Assembly (NCBI GenBank): GCA_020216895.1
Contig: JAIWOM010000026.1
Coordinates: 1-11,313 of the forward strand
DNA: 11,313 nucleotides
Reading direction: 5' to 3'
Source of the DNA: Microcella sp.
GTDB taxonomy: Bacteria > Actinomycetota > Actinomycetes > Actinomycetales > Microbacteriaceae
How positions within the stretch are numbered: position 1 is the first letter of the stretch; the number at the start of each line of letters is the position of its first letter. The notes below the pieces were generated by a model. That model searched no databases. It was given only the letters and a program-made list of their open reading frames with translations, and was not told the origin of the DNA. Of the stretch, positions 3,698-11,043 are shown one piece after another. The translations under genes were made by a program, and so were the position numbers.

Positions 3698-4033
3698 TTG
3701 GACATCACGGTGGTGCACCACCCCTTCGGGGTCGCCGAGGTCACGGTCTCCGGGCGCCTCAACATGGTCACGGCCGCGCGCATGCGCGAGGCGATCGAGC
3801 AGGCCGTCGACGGCAATCACCCGAACGTCGCTGTCGACCTGTCGCAGGTCGTCTTCCTCGACTCCTCGGGGCTCGGGGCGCTCGTCGCCGGGCTCAAGTC
3901 GGTGCGGGCATCCGGCGGCGATCTGCGCCTCGTGCGCCCCGCCGAGCAGGCGCAGCTCGTGCTCGAGCTGACCAACATGGGCACGGTGCTGCAGAGCTTC
4001 GACTCGGTGGGCGCCGCGTTCCCGCATGCCTGA
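3698..4033 (+). CDS. STAS-domain anti-sigma factor antagonist (RsbV/SpoIIAA type)
   Basis: A single-domain, 111-residue cytoplasmic STAS protein, the usual length for RsbV/SpoIIAA. In this family the unphosphorylated form binds a kinase/anti-sigma factor and frees its sigma factor; phosphorylation on a conserved serine disables it and a PP2C phosphatase restores it. The hallmark DSSGLGAL motif is at 55-62, after the hydrophobic strand VAVDLSQVVFLD, so Ser56 or Ser57 should be the phosphorylation site (Ser56 by alignment with RsbV). The start is a TTG with a strong ribosome binding site. Its stop overlaps the start of the next gene by 8 bases (ATGCCTGA), implying translational coupling and matched amounts with the kinase-phosphatase fusion, its likely partner. 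No sigma factor gene is adjacent, so the downstream target is unknown. The alternative is a regulator of a non-sigma target, as some STAS proteins are. Confidence 0.9.
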   Translation: MDITVVHHPFGVAEVTVSGRLNMVTAARMREAIEQAVDGNHPNVAVDLSQVVFLDSSGLGALVAGLKSVRASGGDLRLVRPAEQAQLVLELTNMGTVLQSFDSVGAAFPHA

Positions 4034-5633
4034 GCTGGTCCGCCGGACCTTCCGGTTGCACTCGCCGCCCGACTCGGTCGACACGGTGCAGGACGCCCTC
4101 GCGACCGTCTGGGGCTACGTGCCCGATCTCAGCCCCGCCGACCTGATGGCCGCCGAGCTCGCGATCGTAGAGCTGGCGGCCAATGTCGTCCAGCACGCCA
4201 ACATGGGCGACCCGATCGACTTCACGCTCACGGTCGTCGTCTACGACGATCGCATCGAGACGACCGTCACGGATGAAGGTCGCGTCGACCACGTCGACCT
4301 CCGCGAGCGCGCGATGCCCGGCGGGGAGGCCGAGCGCGGGCGGGGCATCCCGATCATGCAGTCGCTCGCCGACAGCCTCGAGCTCCGCCGCATCGACGGG
4401 CTGAAGCACTGGACGATCGTGCGCGGGCGGCAGGCCGCCACGACCCGCTCGCGGAAGGCGATGCCGTCGATCTCGATCGCGGGCGTCATCGACGAGATCG
4501 CCCGTCAGCGCGCGCTCGACGACATGGGCATCCTCGACACCCCGCCGGAGGAGCGCTTCGACCGTGTCACCCGGCTCGCCCGCCAGCTGTTCGGCGTCGA
4601 GTCGGCGGCGATCAACCTCATCGACGGCGACCGCCAGTGGGCGAAGTCGGTCGCGGGTCGGGCCGTCGTCGAGATCCCGCGCGATGAGTCGATGTGCACG
4701 GTGACGATCCAGGATGACGCTCCCCTCGTGGTCGCCGACATCGGGGCCGATCCGGTGCACGCGCACAAGATGGTGCCGGGGCTGCTGAACTTCTACGCCG
4801 GCTTCCCGCTCTACGCACCCGGCGGCAAGCGCATCGGCGCCTTCTGCGTCTACGACTCGCAGGCGCGGCACTTCTCGGCGCGCGAGGCCGAGATGCTGCG
4901 CGATCTCGCCAGCTGGGTGCAGCAGGAGCTCACCGTCAGCCAGGAGCTGAGCAGGGCCTCGGAGGTGCAGCAGGGCCTGCTGCCGCACCAATTGCTGAGC
5001 CTGCCGGGCTGGCACACGGCCGGCGTGTGCATCCCCGCCCGCGCCGTCGGCGGCGACTTCTACGACTGGTACCCCGTCGGCGAGGGCGCCGCGCTCACGC
5101 TCGCCGATGCGATGGGCAAGGGGATCGCGGCGGCGATCATCGCGGCGACCGTGCGCGCCGTGCTGCGCTCGGCCGCCCGCTTCGGCGATGTCGCGGGCGC
5201 CGTCGAGGCCGCATCGGCGGCACTCACGGTCGACCTCGACAATGCCGGCGTCTTCGTCACCGCCTTCCACGCCCGGCTCGACATGGACTCGGGCCTGCTC
5301 AGCTACGTGGATGCCGGGCACGGCCTCTCGATCGTGGCCCACGCCGACGGCACCTCCGAGCGGCTGCGGTCGACCTCGCCGCCGCTCGGCGTCGACTACG
5401 AGACCGACTGGAAGGTGCAGACCGTCCAGCTGGATCCGGGTGACACCCTGATCGTCGTCAGCGACGGCGTGCTCGACCTCTACGACGGCACCCTGGGGTC
5501 GCTGGACAACCTGGTGACGCTGGCGCTGCTGGCCCAGGACCCCTGGGAGATCATCGACGCGATCCGGGCGCGCGCGCGGGGCACGAGCGCCGATGACGTG
5601 ACGGTGCTGATCGTGCGGCGCGACACCGCCTGA
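4026..5633 (+). CDS. Fusion protein: RsbW-like kinase + GAF sensor + PP2C (SpoIIE/RsbU) phosphatase
   Basis: A 535-residue soluble protein with three domains. Residues 1-137 form a GHKL anti-sigma kinase domain: N-box Glu49 and Asn53 (VELAANVVQHA), G1 Asp83-x-Gly85, and the Gly-rich G2 motif ERGRGIPIM (103-111). Residues 155-305 are a GAF domain of the [16 protein letters not shown] type, with DRQW and FYAGFPLY signatures; it binds an unknown ligand. A helix (299-320, ending EVQQGLLP) leads to a PP2C phosphatase, 325-535, with all expected metal-site motifs: GGDFYDW (Asp344), DAMGKG (Asp361), SDG (Asp480), ADDVT (Asp523). The kinase should phosphorylate and the phosphatase dephosphorylate the STAS protein encoded just upstream, with the GAF signal setting the balance. 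The start overlaps the STAS stop by 8 bases and has no good ribosome binding site, so translation is probably coupled. Mycobacterial Rv1364c also fuses both activities, but with phosphatase before kinase. Functional coupling is inferred. Confidence 0.88.
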   Translation: MPELVRRTFRLHSPPDSVDTVQDALATVWGYVPDLSPADLMAAELAIVELAANVVQHANMGDPIDFTLTVVVYDDRIETTVTDEGRVDHVDLRERAMPGGEAERGRGIPIMQSLADSLELRRIDGLKHWTIVRGRQAATTRSRKAMPSISIAGVIDEIARQRALDDMGILDTPPEERFDRVTRLARQLFGVESAAINLIDGDRQWAKSVAGRAVVEIPRDESMCTVTIQDDAPLVVADIGADPVHAHKMVPGLLNFYAGFPLYAPGGKRIGAFCVYDSQARHFSAREAEMLRDLASWVQQELTVSQELSRASEVQQGLLPHQLLSLPGWHTAGVCIPARAVGGDFYDWYPVGEGAALTLADAMGKGIAAAIIAATVRAVLRSAARFGDVAGAVEAASAALTVDLDNAGVFVTAFHARLDMDSGLLSYVDAGHGLSIVAHADGTSERLRSTSPPLGVDYETDWKVQTVQLDPGDTLIVVSDGVLDLYDGTLGSLDNLVTLALLAQDPWEIIDAIRARARGTSADDVTVLIVRRDTA

Positions 5634-5671
5634 GGGTCGCTCAATCCCACCCTCGCGCCGAGCCCCCTCCT

Positions 5672-5681
5672 TTGACAGACT
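5672..5681 (+). promoter_or_regulatory. Promoter element before the second fusion gene
   Basis: TTGACAGACT contains CAGACT (5676-5681), the same -10-like hexamer found before the SRPBCC gene, followed by GGGGGCG as before pcrA. It would start transcription near 5688. Alternatively TTGACA (5672-5677) is a perfect -35 box, but no good -10 lies about 17 bases further on. A 6-base inverted repeat, GCCCCC (5662-5667) and GGGGGC (5682-5687), brackets the element and could be a weak terminator for the preceding gene or an operator. The second copy thus probably has its own promoter. Confidence 0.4.
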
Positions 5682-5711
5682 GGGGGCGTCGACCAGAACG
5701 GGGGCGCGACG

Positions 5712-5819
5712 ATGCGGAACGAGAGTGCGGAGACGGTGCTGCGGGGCGACTCCAGGTCGGGGACACGGAGGCGCCGCGGCACCGCGCCGATCGGCGCCGG
5801 AGGGCATCGCCATGACTGA
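5712..5819 (+). pseudogene. 35-codon upstream ORF, possible remnant of a duplicated STAS gene
   Basis: ATG 5712 opens a 35-codon frame ending at TGA 5817-5819, overlapping the start of the next gene by 8 bases (ATGACTGA), just as the STAS gene overlaps the first fusion gene (ATGCCTGA). Its frame matches the STAS 3' end. ACGGTGCTGC occurs in both at a codon boundary (3983-3992; 5733-5742), CGACTC follows in both (3-base gap), and both end CAT-GNC-TGA. In protein terms both read TVL..DS..G, then His-x-stop, with about 12 extra Arg/Gly-rich codons in the remnant. None of the catalytic DSSGLG region survives. The shared TGA is partly explained by conserved coding of M-x-E-L in the next gene, and short matches in high-GC DNA can be chance, so this is a hypothesis. 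If translated it may act as a leader peptide coupling expression of the second fusion. Confidence 0.35.
5799..5804 (+). promoter_or_regulatory. Ribosome binding site fixing ATG 5812
   Basis: GGAGGG lies 7 bases before ATG 5812. It supports this start over the in-frame GTG 5725, which would add 29 Arg/Gly-rich residues with no counterpart in the first fusion protein. From ATG 5812 the two proteins align from residue 1 (MPELV.R with MTELV.R). Confidence 0.7.
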
Positions 5820-7416
5820 GCTGGTGTCCCGGTCGATCCGTCTGACCCGCGAGGGCTCACCGCGCTCGGCCGTGCGGGCCCTGATCGACGAGCTGTGGCA
5901 CGAGGCGGGGGACGTCGACGCAGCAGATCGCTCGGCCGTGGAGCGGGCCGTCGACACCATGCTCGACGCGGTGTTCCCGGATGGCGAGCCGGACGGGGCC
6001 GCGGTCTGCTCGCTGCTGATGAGCGTGCGCGACGATCGGCTCGAGGTCATCGCCGCCGCAGCGGCCCCGGCGCCCCTGGACGAGCCGGTGATCTCGGAGG
6101 GGGCGGAGGTTCTCTCCCGCCTCCGCGACCTCGTCGACCTGGCGCGCGTGAGGAGCCACGGATCGATCACGGAGTGGGAGCTCGTGCGTGCCCGGGCCCA
6201 CGCCCGGTCGTTCGCGGTGCCCACCGCGACGGCCGCGACCACGGCCGATGTACCGGCGGAACTCAGGAGGCAGCGCGCCCTCGAGGACATGCATGTGTTC
6301 GAGCACCCGGACGATGATCGATTCGATCGCGTCACCCGGCTCGCCATCGAGCTGTTCCGGGTGGGCAACTCGGCTGTCAACCTCATCGATCGCGACCGAG
6401 CGTGGTCGCGGTCGCTCGCGGGCGGCGGCAGCCGGACCGTGCCGCGAGCCCGATCCCTGTGCAACGTCACCATCACGCAGGACAGCGCCTATGTCCTTCC
6501 GGACATCGGAGCCGACCCCCGAGCGTCGGTGATCCTCGAGTCCGATCACAGGTTCTATGCGGGCCTCCCGCTCTACTCCGCGGGCGGAGAACGGATCGGT
6601 GCCTTCTGCATCTACGACTCGGAGCCGCGATCGTTCTCCGCTCGAGATGAGACCGTCCTGCGCGACCTCACCGCGCTCGTGCAGCAGGAGCTCTCGGTGA
6701 GCCGCGAGCTCGCCCGAGGAGCCCGCGTGCGGCGCCGACTGATGCCTGATCGGGCTGCGACGAGCGCCGGGTGGAGCGTTGCCGGGTTCAGTGTCGCCGA
6801 ACGGGGCTTCGGTGCCGAGTTCGTCGACTGGAGCGCGACCGACGCGGGGATCACCCTGTCGTTGGGCGACGCGCGGGACACCGATGCGGGCGCGGCGGTG
6901 CTCGCCGCGACCGTGCGGGCGGCCCTGCGGTCGTCGGCGCCGGTCGACGACCACGGTGGCGCTGACGAGGTCAGCCGCTCGATCACCGCCGCCGCTCGCG
7001 CCCTGGGCGCTGACCCCGATGACCACGACACGGCGGTCGCCGTGTTCCATGGGCGCATCGACCCGGCGACGGGGGCCCTCCACTACGTCGACGCCGGGCA
7101 CGGTCTCGCTGTCATCCTGCGTGTCGATGGCTCGCGTCAGGTGCTGCCCTCCACGGCACCGCCGCTCGGTGCATCGGTCTCTGCGTCCAGGCCTGTGGCG
7201 AGCCGCACGCTCGAGCAGGGCGATGCTCTCGTCGTCGTCAGCGACGGGGCCCTCGACCTCGTCGGCGGCGGCGAGGGGGCCCTCGAGCGGCTGGCGGCGG
7301 CAGCCTCATCCGCCCGCGACCCCGAGGCGTTCATCTCGGCGATGCGCGATCGGGTCGGGTCGAGGACGCACCAGGATGTGACGGCGCTGGTGGTCCGCCG
7401 TCACCGGGCGGCCTGA
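5812..7416 (+). CDS. Degenerate paralogue of the kinase-GAF-phosphatase fusion (likely double pseudoenzyme)
   Basis: This 534-residue protein is a tandem paralogue of the 535-residue protein before it, collinear across all three regions. The kinase region (1-130) has lost its active site: Glu49 is Thr49, Asn53 is Ala53, Asp83 and Gly85 lie in a run of alanines, and the Gly-Arg-Gly loop aligns with Ala-Glu-Val at 98-100. The GAF domain (about 155-297) is well kept, including [20 protein letters not shown] and [10 protein letters not shown]. In the phosphatase (315-534), GGD is Gly-Ala-Glu336, DAMGKG is DARDTD (353-358), and DDVT is Gln521-Asp-Val-Thr; Asp353 and Asp478 remain. At least two of four metal ligands are thus changed, although the fold motifs YVDAGHG and VVVSDG persist. 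The frame is intact, so the protein is probably made and selected for something other than catalysis: ligand sensing, heterodimerisation with the active copy, or binding a STAS protein. Codon choice looks slightly less biased than in its neighbours. Confidence 0.85.
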
Positions 7417-7451
7417 GCCGGCCGGCGGTCGAGTGGTCTCGGCGGCGGCGG

Positions 7452-7457
7452 TACAGT
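7452..7457 (+). promoter_or_regulatory. -10 box (TACAGT) of the sucCD operon
   Basis: TACAGT, followed by TAAG, lies 36 bases after the stop of the preceding gene and would start transcription near 7464. This leaves a leader of about 107 bases before the sucC GTG, the longest untranslated leader in the window. No clear -35 is present. The palindrome at 7473-7486 falls at about +10 to +23, a position suited to a repressor roadblock. Confidence 0.45.
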
Positions 7458-7466
7458 TAAGCCTGC

Positions 7467-7490
7467 GATTTGTCTCGATATCGAGAAATC
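7467..7490 (+). promoter_or_regulatory. Perfect 14-base palindrome in the sucC leader, candidate operator
   Basis: TCTCGATATCGAGA (7473-7486) is a perfect palindrome with two 7-base half-sites. GATT (7467-7470) and AATC (7487-7490) extend the dyad outside a 2-base asymmetry. It lies in the AT-richest patch near sucC, just after the likely transcription start, as expected for a dimeric helix-turn-helix repressor. As RNA it could only form a 5-pair stem with a 4-base loop, so a DNA site is more likely. I cannot name the regulator. Confidence 0.55.
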
Positions 7491-7570
7491 TCTCCCGCGG
7501 GGATGCTCACGGTGGAGACCGACCGCATCCCCTTTACCCTCTCTTTTCGCACGCGGATGGGACGAGCAGC

Positions 7571-9647
<2,077 letters not shown>

Positions 9648-9742: not shown

Positions 9743-10351
9743 GTGGGCACGCGCGCGATCCGGGTCGAGACCGTGATCGCGGCCGACATCGAAACGGTCT
9801 GGCGGCTCACGCAGGATCCGACGGCGCACGCCCGCTGGGACGCGCGCTTCAGCCGCATCGTCCCGACCGAGCGGGGCGACGACGGCCAGTGGCGCTTCCG
9901 CTACGAGCGGGGGATGCTCGTCCGCACGATCCGCGGAGCCGGCATCGCGCTCGGCACCCGCGAGGGCGCCAATGGCGCCCGCACTTCGGCGCTGCGGTTC
10001 ACGACGCGCGACCGGCTCTCACCCCTGCGCGACGGTCGCGGCTACTGGCGCTACGAGCCCGTCGACGGTGGCGTTCGCTTCATCACCGGCTACGACTACG
10101 CGCCCGGCTGGGGGTCGCTGCTCGACCGCGTGCTCGTGCGGCCCCTCGTCGCCTGGATGACCGCCTGCAGCTTCGCGCGCCTCCGGCGCTGGGCCGAGCG
10201 CGGCGACGAGCCGGAGCGCTGGCCGCTCTGGCGCATGGCGCTGCCCGGGCGGGGGGACCGGCCGCGGGCCCGCGACTGCGTGTGGAGCATCGGGAGGCCG
10301 GAGGCCCTGCGCGACGCTCCTGCGACGCTCGTCGGACTGGACGCGCCGTGA
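9743..10351 (+). CDS. SRPBCC (START/Bet v 1-like) family protein
   Basis: A 202-residue soluble protein. The N-terminus reads IRVETVIAADIETVWRLTQDPTAHARWDARFSRI (from residue 6), the standard opening of polyketide cyclase/SRPBCC proteins: strand, I/V-xAdxetVW helix, then a tryptophan in a R/KWD motif at 31-33. Later strands YWRYEPVDGGVRFITGYDYAPG and a long amphipathic helix (about 123-152, LLDRVLVRPLVAWMTACSFARLRRW) fit the helix-grip fold that binds hydrophobic ligands. No catalytic residues can be named. The helix is followed by a Trp/Arg-rich tail of about 50 residues beyond the fold. GTG 9743 is chosen because a CAGACT box is 6 bases upstream and there is no ribosome binding site. It overlaps the DUF4166 gene by 4 bases (GTGA), so the two are co-translated and probably work together. 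The function is unknown; ligand binding is inferred from the fold. Confidence 0.75.
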   Translation: MGTRAIRVETVIAADIETVWRLTQDPTAHARWDARFSRIVPTERGDDGQWRFRYERGMLVRTIRGAGIALGTREGANGARTSALRFTTRDRLSPLRDGRGYWRYEPVDGGVRFITGYDYAPGWGSLLDRVLVRPLVAWMTACSFARLRRWAERGDEPERWPLWRMALPGRGDRPRARDCVWSIGRPEALRDAPATLVGLDAP

Positions 10352-11043
10352 GCGACGACGCCCGCAGCATGTTCGCCCGCGCGATGGGCGACGACTTCAC
10401 GCGGCTGCATCCGATGCTGCAGCGCCGGTTCGGCGTCGGTCTCGCGGCCGGGTACGCCTGCGTCGGTCGCGGCGTGATGTCGCGCATCCGTCGAGGGCCG
10501 TGGTGGACGGTGCCGTTCCTGCACATCGGACGCATCCGCAACATCCTGGCCCCCTACCCGGGCGAGCACGTTCCCTTCACGGTCGAGAACTACCCGTACC
10601 GCGACCCGCTCGGGCGCGAGACGGTGACGTTCGTGCGCACCTTCGCGTACCCCGACCGGCCCGGGCGCTCCGGCCGCTTCGACGCGACCATGATCCGCGG
10701 CCGCGACGGACGGATCGTCGACTACCTCGGCACCCACCAGCACCTCGCGGTCGACCTCGAACTGCGTGCAGAGCCGGACGGGTCGCTGCACCTGACCTCC
10801 GATGCGCAGCGCTTCTATGCCGGCCCCCTCGGCTTCCGGTTCCCGATGCTGTTCTCGGGTCGAGCCGACCTGCGCGAGTCGTTCGACGACGCGACGGGCG
10901 AGTACGTGATCCGCCTGAGCGTGCGCAACCGCGTCCTCGGCTTCCTGTTCGGCTACGAGGGTCGCTTCACCTGCGAGTTCCCCCCGGTCCACGGCTCCCC
11001 GCCCTCGCACGTCCTCCCCGTGCGCCACGAGCGGCGCGAGTAG
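10348..11043 (+). CDS. DUF4166 domain-containing protein
   Basis: A 231-residue protein matching what I know of DUF4166 over nearly its full length: MFARAMGDDFTRLHPMLQRRFG at 8-29 (the LHP motif and RFG/HFG turn), then RGP and PFTVENYPY...GRETVTFVRTF (76-99), a strand-rich middle, and the C-terminal block QRFYAGPLGFRFPMLFSGRADLRESFDD (154-181) ending GYEGRFTCEF (202-211). In other bacteria this domain occurs alone or fused to NAD(P)-binding or DoxX-like membrane domains; its biochemical role is, to my knowledge, not established. There is no signal peptide and only short hydrophobic stretches, so it is probably cytoplasmic. GTG 10348 overlaps the upstream stop by 4 bases; in-frame ATGs at residues 8 and 13 are less likely because homology starts near residue 8. 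The overlap with the SRPBCC gene suggests a shared, possibly lipid-related, role, which is inference. Confidence 0.8.
   Translation: MSDDARSMFARAMGDDFTRLHPMLQRRFGVGLAAGYACVGRGVMSRIRRGPWWTVPFLHIGRIRNILAPYPGEHVPFTVENYPYRDPLGRETVTFVRTFAYPDRPGRSGRFDATMIRGRDGRIVDYLGTHQHLAVDLELRAEPDGSLHLTSDAQRFYAGPLGFRFPMLFSGRADLRESFDDATGEYVIRLSVRNRVLGFLFGYEGRFTCEFPPVHGSPPSHVLPVRHERRE

Follow-up and report, generated by a model that had tools for sequence, protein, structure and literature searches.

SypE of Vibrio fischeri consists of an N-terminal serine kinase, a central REC domain and a C-terminal PP2C phosphatase, and acts on the STAS protein SypA (PMC3610818; for this and the other papers cited, statements refer to the sections available). 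RssB has a SpoIIE-type PP2C fold, fulfils its main role without phosphatase activity and is regulated through its switch helices (PMC5468089). In Mycobacterium smegmatis, the RsbW homologue RsbW3 showed no kinase activity in the reported assay and antagonises an RsbW paralogue by a presumed heterodimer (PMC7693655). For the gene described here, RsbW3, RssB and SypE are the closest precedents, although each resembles it in a single respect. It lies in an 11,313-nt stretch from Microcella sp. (GenBank assembly GCA_020216895.1, contig JAIWOM010000026.1; the whole stretch is called the window), which is contig C215 of a metagenome-assembled genome (MAG, G000) of 264 contigs that is 71% complete. 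Two adjacent genes of the window encode kinase-GAF-PP2C fusions: A, with an intact set of catalytic residues, and B, its paralogue, in which both active sites are degenerate. We propose, with a probability of about 0.45, that B is a non-catalytic, GAF-bearing regulatory partner of A.

Both fusions share with SypE the kinase-sensor-phosphatase order around one STAS partner, and the locus couples a STAS gene to a kinase-sensor-PP2C gene as in a SypE-like switch without a sigma factor. SypE differs from B in carrying REC instead of GAF and in being active, and the available sections mention no inactive twin (PMC3610818). RssB, unlike B, has a REC domain (PMC12143880) and no kinase-like domain, and its client is a sigma factor that is delivered to a protease. 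RsbW3 is a 194-aa protein of the SigF pathway that is not fused to GAF and PP2C (PMC7693655), whereas Rv1364c of M. tuberculosis has a PAS-PP2C-anti-sigma-anti-anti-sigma order with a STAS-type domain of its own (PMC12143880). The A-type proteins of Microcella are closest: they have the domain order, length, GAF core and gene locus of B, but keep all eight of the invariant catalytic positions at which B is altered, and their helix end is neutral to slightly acidic. A literature search over titles and the starts of abstracts, in which subscription papers were mostly outside the coverage, gave no fused pseudokinase-pseudophosphatase like B among the matches listed, and found none combining Microcella with SpoIIE.

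Loss of catalytic residues in B

B and A are 40% identical over their full length (E 3e-116; BLASTP, single comparison). The frame of B is open already from GTG 5725 (563 aa), and ATG 5812 was taken as the start because it aligned with the start of A. An earlier reading of the window from its letters only, here the sequence-only reading, had described an intact frame at 5812-7416, differing from A by one residue in length and assigned to the GHKL kinase, GAF and PP2C families. The frame is indeed open, with 534 against 535 aa, and the families were recovered: A matched HATPase_c_2 (PF13581) at 8.2e-14, and B matched the SpoIIE/RsbU family (PF07228) at 4e-23, a PP2C fold, GAF_2 at 1.2e-8 and the structure 4zmu_A at 6e-19. 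PF13581 was unreported for B up to E 1, a value to be read with the fact that HMMER drops most matches above E 0.1. In an AlphaFold2 (AF2) model with A rows in the alignment, the kinase-like part of B was predicted as strand-helix-helix-strand-strand-helix-strand-strand, with a predicted local distance difference test (pLDDT) score of ~70-97. The structure search hardly covered this part.

A second protein of the B lineage, P0004, is 60% identical to B and 535 aa long; it is represented by 2 member sequences and lies on a 2714-bp contig from another source. PF13581 was unreported for it up to E 0.1. Both proteins were compared with 55 distinct full-length A proteins, the fragments P0025, G013 and G025 being left out. 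E49, N53, D83, G85, G105 and G107, which we take to be the Glu and Asn of the N-box, the Asp and Gly of the G1 box and the glycines of the lid, are invariant in 55 of 55 A proteins. At these places B has T, A, A, A, A and V, and P0004 has L, T, E, A, S and S, so all six positions of the RsbW-like kinase motifs are changed in both. D344, D361, D480 and D523 of the phosphatase are also invariant in the 55 A proteins. The corresponding residues are E336, D353, D478 and Q521 in B and A, D, A and R in P0004, and the MGKG of A reads RDTD in B. The metal side chains of SpoIIE are D628, D746 and D795 (PMC5468089), which correspond to D361, D480 and D523 in an alignment of A to 5mqh; D344 stands outside this set. 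Two of the three SpoIIE-type metal aspartates (D353, D478) are retained in B and one of three in P0004, so neither has the full set of an active phosphatase.

Every kinase and phosphatase change that had been named in the sequence-only reading was correct in this alignment. Its description of a targeted loss at both sites can be refined: the D344-to-E change is conservative and two of three metal aspartates are kept, so that the phosphatase site of B is better described as damaged than as erased. The SypE mutation N52A abolished the function of the SypE kinase domain (PMC3610818), and A53 of B is the same substitution if the two asparagines are equated by motif. The kinase of the B-lineage proteins is almost surely dead and the phosphatase very probably so, with greater doubt for B than for P0004. 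The same kinase losses, with worse phosphatase losses, are thus found in a relative with an intact frame. Among the new observations, this one lends the earlier interpretation its strongest support, and we consider it highly likely that B is a pseudoenzyme.

Uneven conservation along B

The loss in B is uneven, not scattered. With segment boundaries drawn after inspection of the alignment, the agreement of B with the A consensus was low for the G1 box (0.00), the lid (0.17) and the surroundings of MGKG (0.21). It was higher for the end strands of the kinase-like part (0.58 and 0.60), the PP2C switch helix (0.69) and the FYAG part of GAF (0.77). Sites that are the same in 98% or more of the 55 A rows were retained in both B and P0004 at 39 of 52 places in GAF, 44 of 98 in PP2C, 6 of 13 in the linker and 10 of 29 in the kinase part. 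The claim that the GAF sensor had been kept is borne out by these counts.

A similar pattern was seen between the two B-lineage proteins. Within the kinase part, agreement was high for the first strand (0.75), strands 61-79 (0.79) and the last strand (0.90), and low for the lid (0.29) and G1 (0.36). Values of 0.78 were found for both the first half of GAF and the GAF-end helix, and 0.81 for the presumed PP2C switch helix; agreement was also low in a variable GAF loop (0.40) and in the QQGLLP end of the helix (0.44). Between B and P0004 the divergence ratio of PP2C to GAF was 1.33, a value reached by 2 of 1453 A pairs (median 0.74), while the kinase/GAF ratio of 1.87 was reached by 113 and the PP2C/kinase ratio of 0.71 by 235 of 1453; the pairs are non-independent, and 32 of 1485 with a domain distance ≤0.05 had been dropped. 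Given that the PP2C/GAF ratio is more unusual than the others, constraint on the phosphatase appears to have fallen most relative to GAF.

Charge of the GAF-to-PP2C helix

Helices of the GAF-to-PP2C type form a dimer coil that carries signals to the PP2C domains (PMC12143880). In B and P0004, as in A, positions 291, 294, 302, 308 and 318 of this helix are L and position 304 is V (A numbering). The net charge of its end is reversed: over A 303-320 it has a mean of -1.0 in A (range -1 to 0, 55 rows) and is +5 in B and +5 in P0004. The same stretch ranged from -4 to +1 in 12 further GAF-PP2C rows, among which P0045 resembles a fragment of an A protein, while the alignment of P0053 and P0054 is poor in the helix. 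Like-charged basic coils should repel each other, and a basic and a mildly acidic coil should not; thus A/B dimers would be favoured over B/B dimers, a direct prediction that would be cheap to test. Of the roles suggested for B in the sequence-only reading, a mixed dimer through GAF and the linker helix appears to fit best, and the charge reversal adds an argument for it.

Occurrence of A and B

A was present in 24 of 26 Microcella genomes (G000 counted) and in 19 of 19 of those at least 90% complete. Among the relatives, 20 of the 23 loci with an A match were fetched (all but G002, G010 and G011; G014 and G024 had no match). A and sucC lay on one piece in 19 of these 20, and A is a conserved gene of the genus, lying between pcrA and sucC. 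B was absent from the A-sucC slot in all 19 fetched relatives where the slot was visible: A was directly followed by sucC in 13, and other genes intervened in 6. The relative with the most similar pcrA (97%) and A (88%) among those fetched, G023, has a short A-sucC spacer, and B looks like an insert of 1.8 kb that separates A from the promoter region of sucC. The nearest A protein to that of the window, P0028 (96%), is on a 39-kb contig outside the loci whose B slot was seen. An assembly artefact was ruled out by the flanks of B, A and the sucC upstream region, and by P0004 on another contig from another source.

Searches for further members were negative. A profile of B and P0004 found no third member among the 7994 candidates sharing most words that were scored. 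When whole genomes were searched (26 from the genus, 398 from the family and 396 from the order, with at most three candidates scored per genome in the family and order sets), no B outside G000 appeared among the matches listed; one genome-contig scan and one viral-contig scan contained no B-lineage DNA. With the same limited candidates, no complete kinase-GAF-PP2C chain was found outside the genus among the matches listed, where nearly all matches began at residue 109 or later and two, each with an internal stop, at 72 and 84. A position of B inside one Microcella clade (98/98 in the large tree) was unsupported in a thinned tree, and was not retained: all A as one clade had a p-value of 0.323 in the approximately unbiased test (p-AU), and clade-1 A alone a p-AU of 0.541.

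In the 6 loci with intervening genes, a second STAS gene was observed in the A-sucC gap (L060, L065, L070, L072, L061 and L064). L060, L065, L070 and L072 also have a free RsbW-like kinase there, with motifs intact by eye in L070 and L072. The gap, where B lies in the window, seems to be a hot spot for added switch parts. Moreover, a cellulose-synthase-like glycosyltransferase family 2 (GT2) gene was seen between A and the second STAS gene in L060, L061, L064 and L065; a Pfam run on L061 only gave Cellulose_synt at 7.3e-27, a hint at a possible switch output.

The B locus and its partners

The features discussed are collected in Table 1. The genes of the window run in the order GDPD, pcrA, STAS, A, B, sucC, sucD, SRPBCC and DUF4166 (pcrA and sucCD named by eye).

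Table 1. Coordinates of A, B and neighbouring elements in the window
Feature	Position	Strand	Remarks
STAS-domain protein (anti-sigma-antagonist type)	3698..4033	+	TTG start; Pfam STAS 1.8e-15; TIGR00377 65.7 bits, above cut-off
A, HATPase_c_2 kinase-GAF-PP2C (SpoIIE) fusion	4026..5633	+	535 aa; all catalytic residues present
Possible -10 element of B	5676..5681	+	CAGACT; putative function
35-codon open reading frame (ORF)	5712..5818	+	Stop overlaps B start (ATGACTGA), like STAS stop over A start (ATGCCTGA)
B, intact A paralogue	5812..7416	+	534 aa; degenerate kinase and phosphatase sites
B kinase-like domain	5812..6207	+	Residues 1-132; end strands and strands 61-79 retained, motifs of N-box, G1 box and lid missing
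B GAF domain	6313..6681	+	Residues 168-290; Pfam GAF_2 1.2e-8
B GAF-to-PP2C helix	6640..6741	+	Residues 277-310; likely dimer coil (AF2)
Basic end of B helix	6694..6747	+	Residues 295-312 (A 303-320)
B PP2C/SpoIIE domain	6766..7404	+	Residues 319-531; E336, D353, RDTD replacing MGKG, D478, Q521
sucC upstream region	7445..7570	+	171-bp match (7445-7615), 96.5%, to A-sucC spacer of B-less G023

The STAS gene overlaps A at 4026-4033. STAS adjoins A in 18 of the 20 fetched loci, and in the other 2, A sits at the end of its piece. In the MAG, at its 71% completeness, the STAS protein is the sole PF01740 match (E ≤ 1e-5) and A the only strong HATPase_c_2 match (9.7e-15, with two more near 1e-6). Given that there is no second PF01740 match and no other strong HATPase_c_2 match, A and its STAS protein are the obvious partners of B. 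All 19 Microcella genomes at least 90% complete carry a STAS match and an A-type match. The TIGR02980 cut-off for SigB/F/G-type sigma factors was reached in 0 of 26 Microcella genomes, with a cut-off so strict that 1 of 14 controls reached it and with G000 71% complete. Because no such sigma factor scored over the cut-off, the switch probably acts on something else, as SypE/SypA does. A weaker sigma match below the cut-off (98.9 bits, 340-aa frame) was seen in G005.

B may be transcribed from a promoter of its own. Four plus-strand matches to the word YAGACT occur in the window (1160, 5676, 9731, 11249); three of them are followed by a gene start after 12 to 15 bp, and the one upstream of B lies 136 bp from its start. 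These words are perhaps -10 elements, in which case the three genes starting 12-15 bp downstream would look nearly leaderless. A scan of 5600-7600 for sigma-70 consensus promoters and for terminators found none. The 35-codon ORF, in which no resemblance to STAS was detected, could provide translational coupling to B, or could be due to chance. A STAS remnant upstream of B was also considered and rejected, the local alignment score of 41 being matched by 10 of 200 shuffles with the start included and by 14 of 200 for the upstream part only. Further downstream, the SRPBCC and DUF4166 pair (9743-11043) is on the sucCD strand in the window and in L057, and on the opposite strand in L059.

Discussion

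In our proposal, B would go back to a duplication of A, or would have been acquired by transfer of a duplicate of this kind, and would persist in at least two lineages. Most likely it would neither phosphorylate nor dephosphorylate the STAS protein. We infer that A is active and dimeric, and that B, itself inactive, would pair with it through GAF and the helix behind GAF, in which most of the hydrophobic face is conserved. The inert PP2C and kinase-like ends of B would then replace one active half of the A/A dimer, and a signal on the GAF domain of B would tune the kinase/phosphatase balance of A, the effect running presumably in this direction. We hold this mixed-dimer mechanism tentatively. 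That the inactive twin is driven by its charge to pair with A and not with itself, so that the switch would be set by the ratio of A to B and by a second signal sensed through GAF, is rather doubtful.

Several observations weigh against this proposal. The absence of B from relatives indicates that B is dispensable, and the known members of its lineage are two, B and P0004. Helix positions 290, 297 and 319 are changed in this lineage, and just 5 of 16 A-invariant helix sites are retained in both of its members. With two of three metal aspartates kept, a weak phosphatase activity of B would be possible. The model of B, with an overall pLDDT of 86.4, leaned on the A rows; B and P0004 alone gave 36.8, too low for a confident fold prediction. 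A promoter of its own would, it seems, leave equal amounts of A and B unassured. Finally, the kinase part in the A-B comparison had a nonsynonymous distance (dN) of 0.893 and a synonymous distance (dS) of 0.847, as if unconstrained (Nei-Gojobori method, NG86).

An adaptor role like that of RssB, in which the pseudo-PP2C domain would bind a client other than A under the control of GAF, with the switch helix opening and closing the binding face, is unlikely. Its client is wholly hypothetical, and an adaptor alone would explain neither the kept strands of the kinase fold nor the helix charge.

It is improbable that B is a relaxed duplicate on its way out, with its function lost and its frame open by luck. 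Such decay would agree with the very long tree stem (4.09; tree distance between B and its closest A 4.16), with the lowest GC content at third codon positions (GC3) of the nine window genes (0.865, against 0.950 in A), with dN about equal to dS in the kinase part, and with the lack of B in relatives. On the other hand, the lineage has two full-length members at 60% identity. Their identity is unequal among domains (chi-square p 0.011) and is higher at sites that are more conserved in A (p 0.005), except in the kinase part, where every conservation class gave 0.51-0.52. Neutral simulations to 60% protein identity kept an open frame in 1 to 9 of 200 runs under six mutation settings, whereas 38 and 44 of 200 runs were stop-free under the two most GC-rich settings; insertions and deletions, and thus frameshifts, were not simulated, so that these counts understate frame breakage by decay. 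Simple decay had been named as a refutation in the sequence-only reading. The intact frame of P0004 argues against recent decay, but this point is weakened because P0004 came from a protein search, which sees only open frames.

The per-domain dN/dS comparison that had been suggested was made between A and B by NG86, with a ratio of about 1 in the kinase-like part, dN 0.400 and dS 0.797 in GAF, and dN 0.521 and dS 0.871 in PP2C; dS is near saturation here (third-position identity of B with A orthologues 0.43-0.51), which makes it unusable as a selection test. Against 18 A orthologues, NG86 omega was 0.16-0.50 for the A of the window and 0.48-0.77 for B. The evidence for selection on B is mixed, and the test against neutral decay is of moderate strength. 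We read these data as a sign that GAF, the beginning of the helix and some of PP2C are constrained, with relaxation over most of the kinase part.

It is also improbable that B serves as a decoy, binding the STAS protein, phosphorylated or not, without turnover and so shielding it from A. B shares its locus with the sole PF01740 match of the MAG and retains PP2C loops such as DAGHGL and PPLG, but its kinase-like domain is without the ATP lid and A-type constraints, and the metal-site loop of PP2C is among the most changed segments. Titration of the STAS protein through the kinase-like domain, as the sequence-only reading had suggested, is hard to reconcile with the loss of the ancestral site constraints seen in the flat identity of 0.51-0.52. 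Least of all would we expect B to have retained or newly acquired enzyme activity, for instance as a one-metal phosphatase. E336, D353 and D478 could hold one metal, but the four aspartate places of P0004 read A, D, A and R, and B and P0004 alike carry substitutions at all six kinase positions.

If B is indeed a non-catalytic partner of A, two opposed enzyme activities would have been lost together while the allosteric parts were kept. Such a double loss would fit the idea that PP2C switches outlive their chemistry (PMC5468089). The locus, with one STAS protein, one active and one inactive fusion, and with no SigB/F/G-type sigma factor scoring above the cut-off, would then offer a simple system for a partner switch that is set by a pseudoenzyme.
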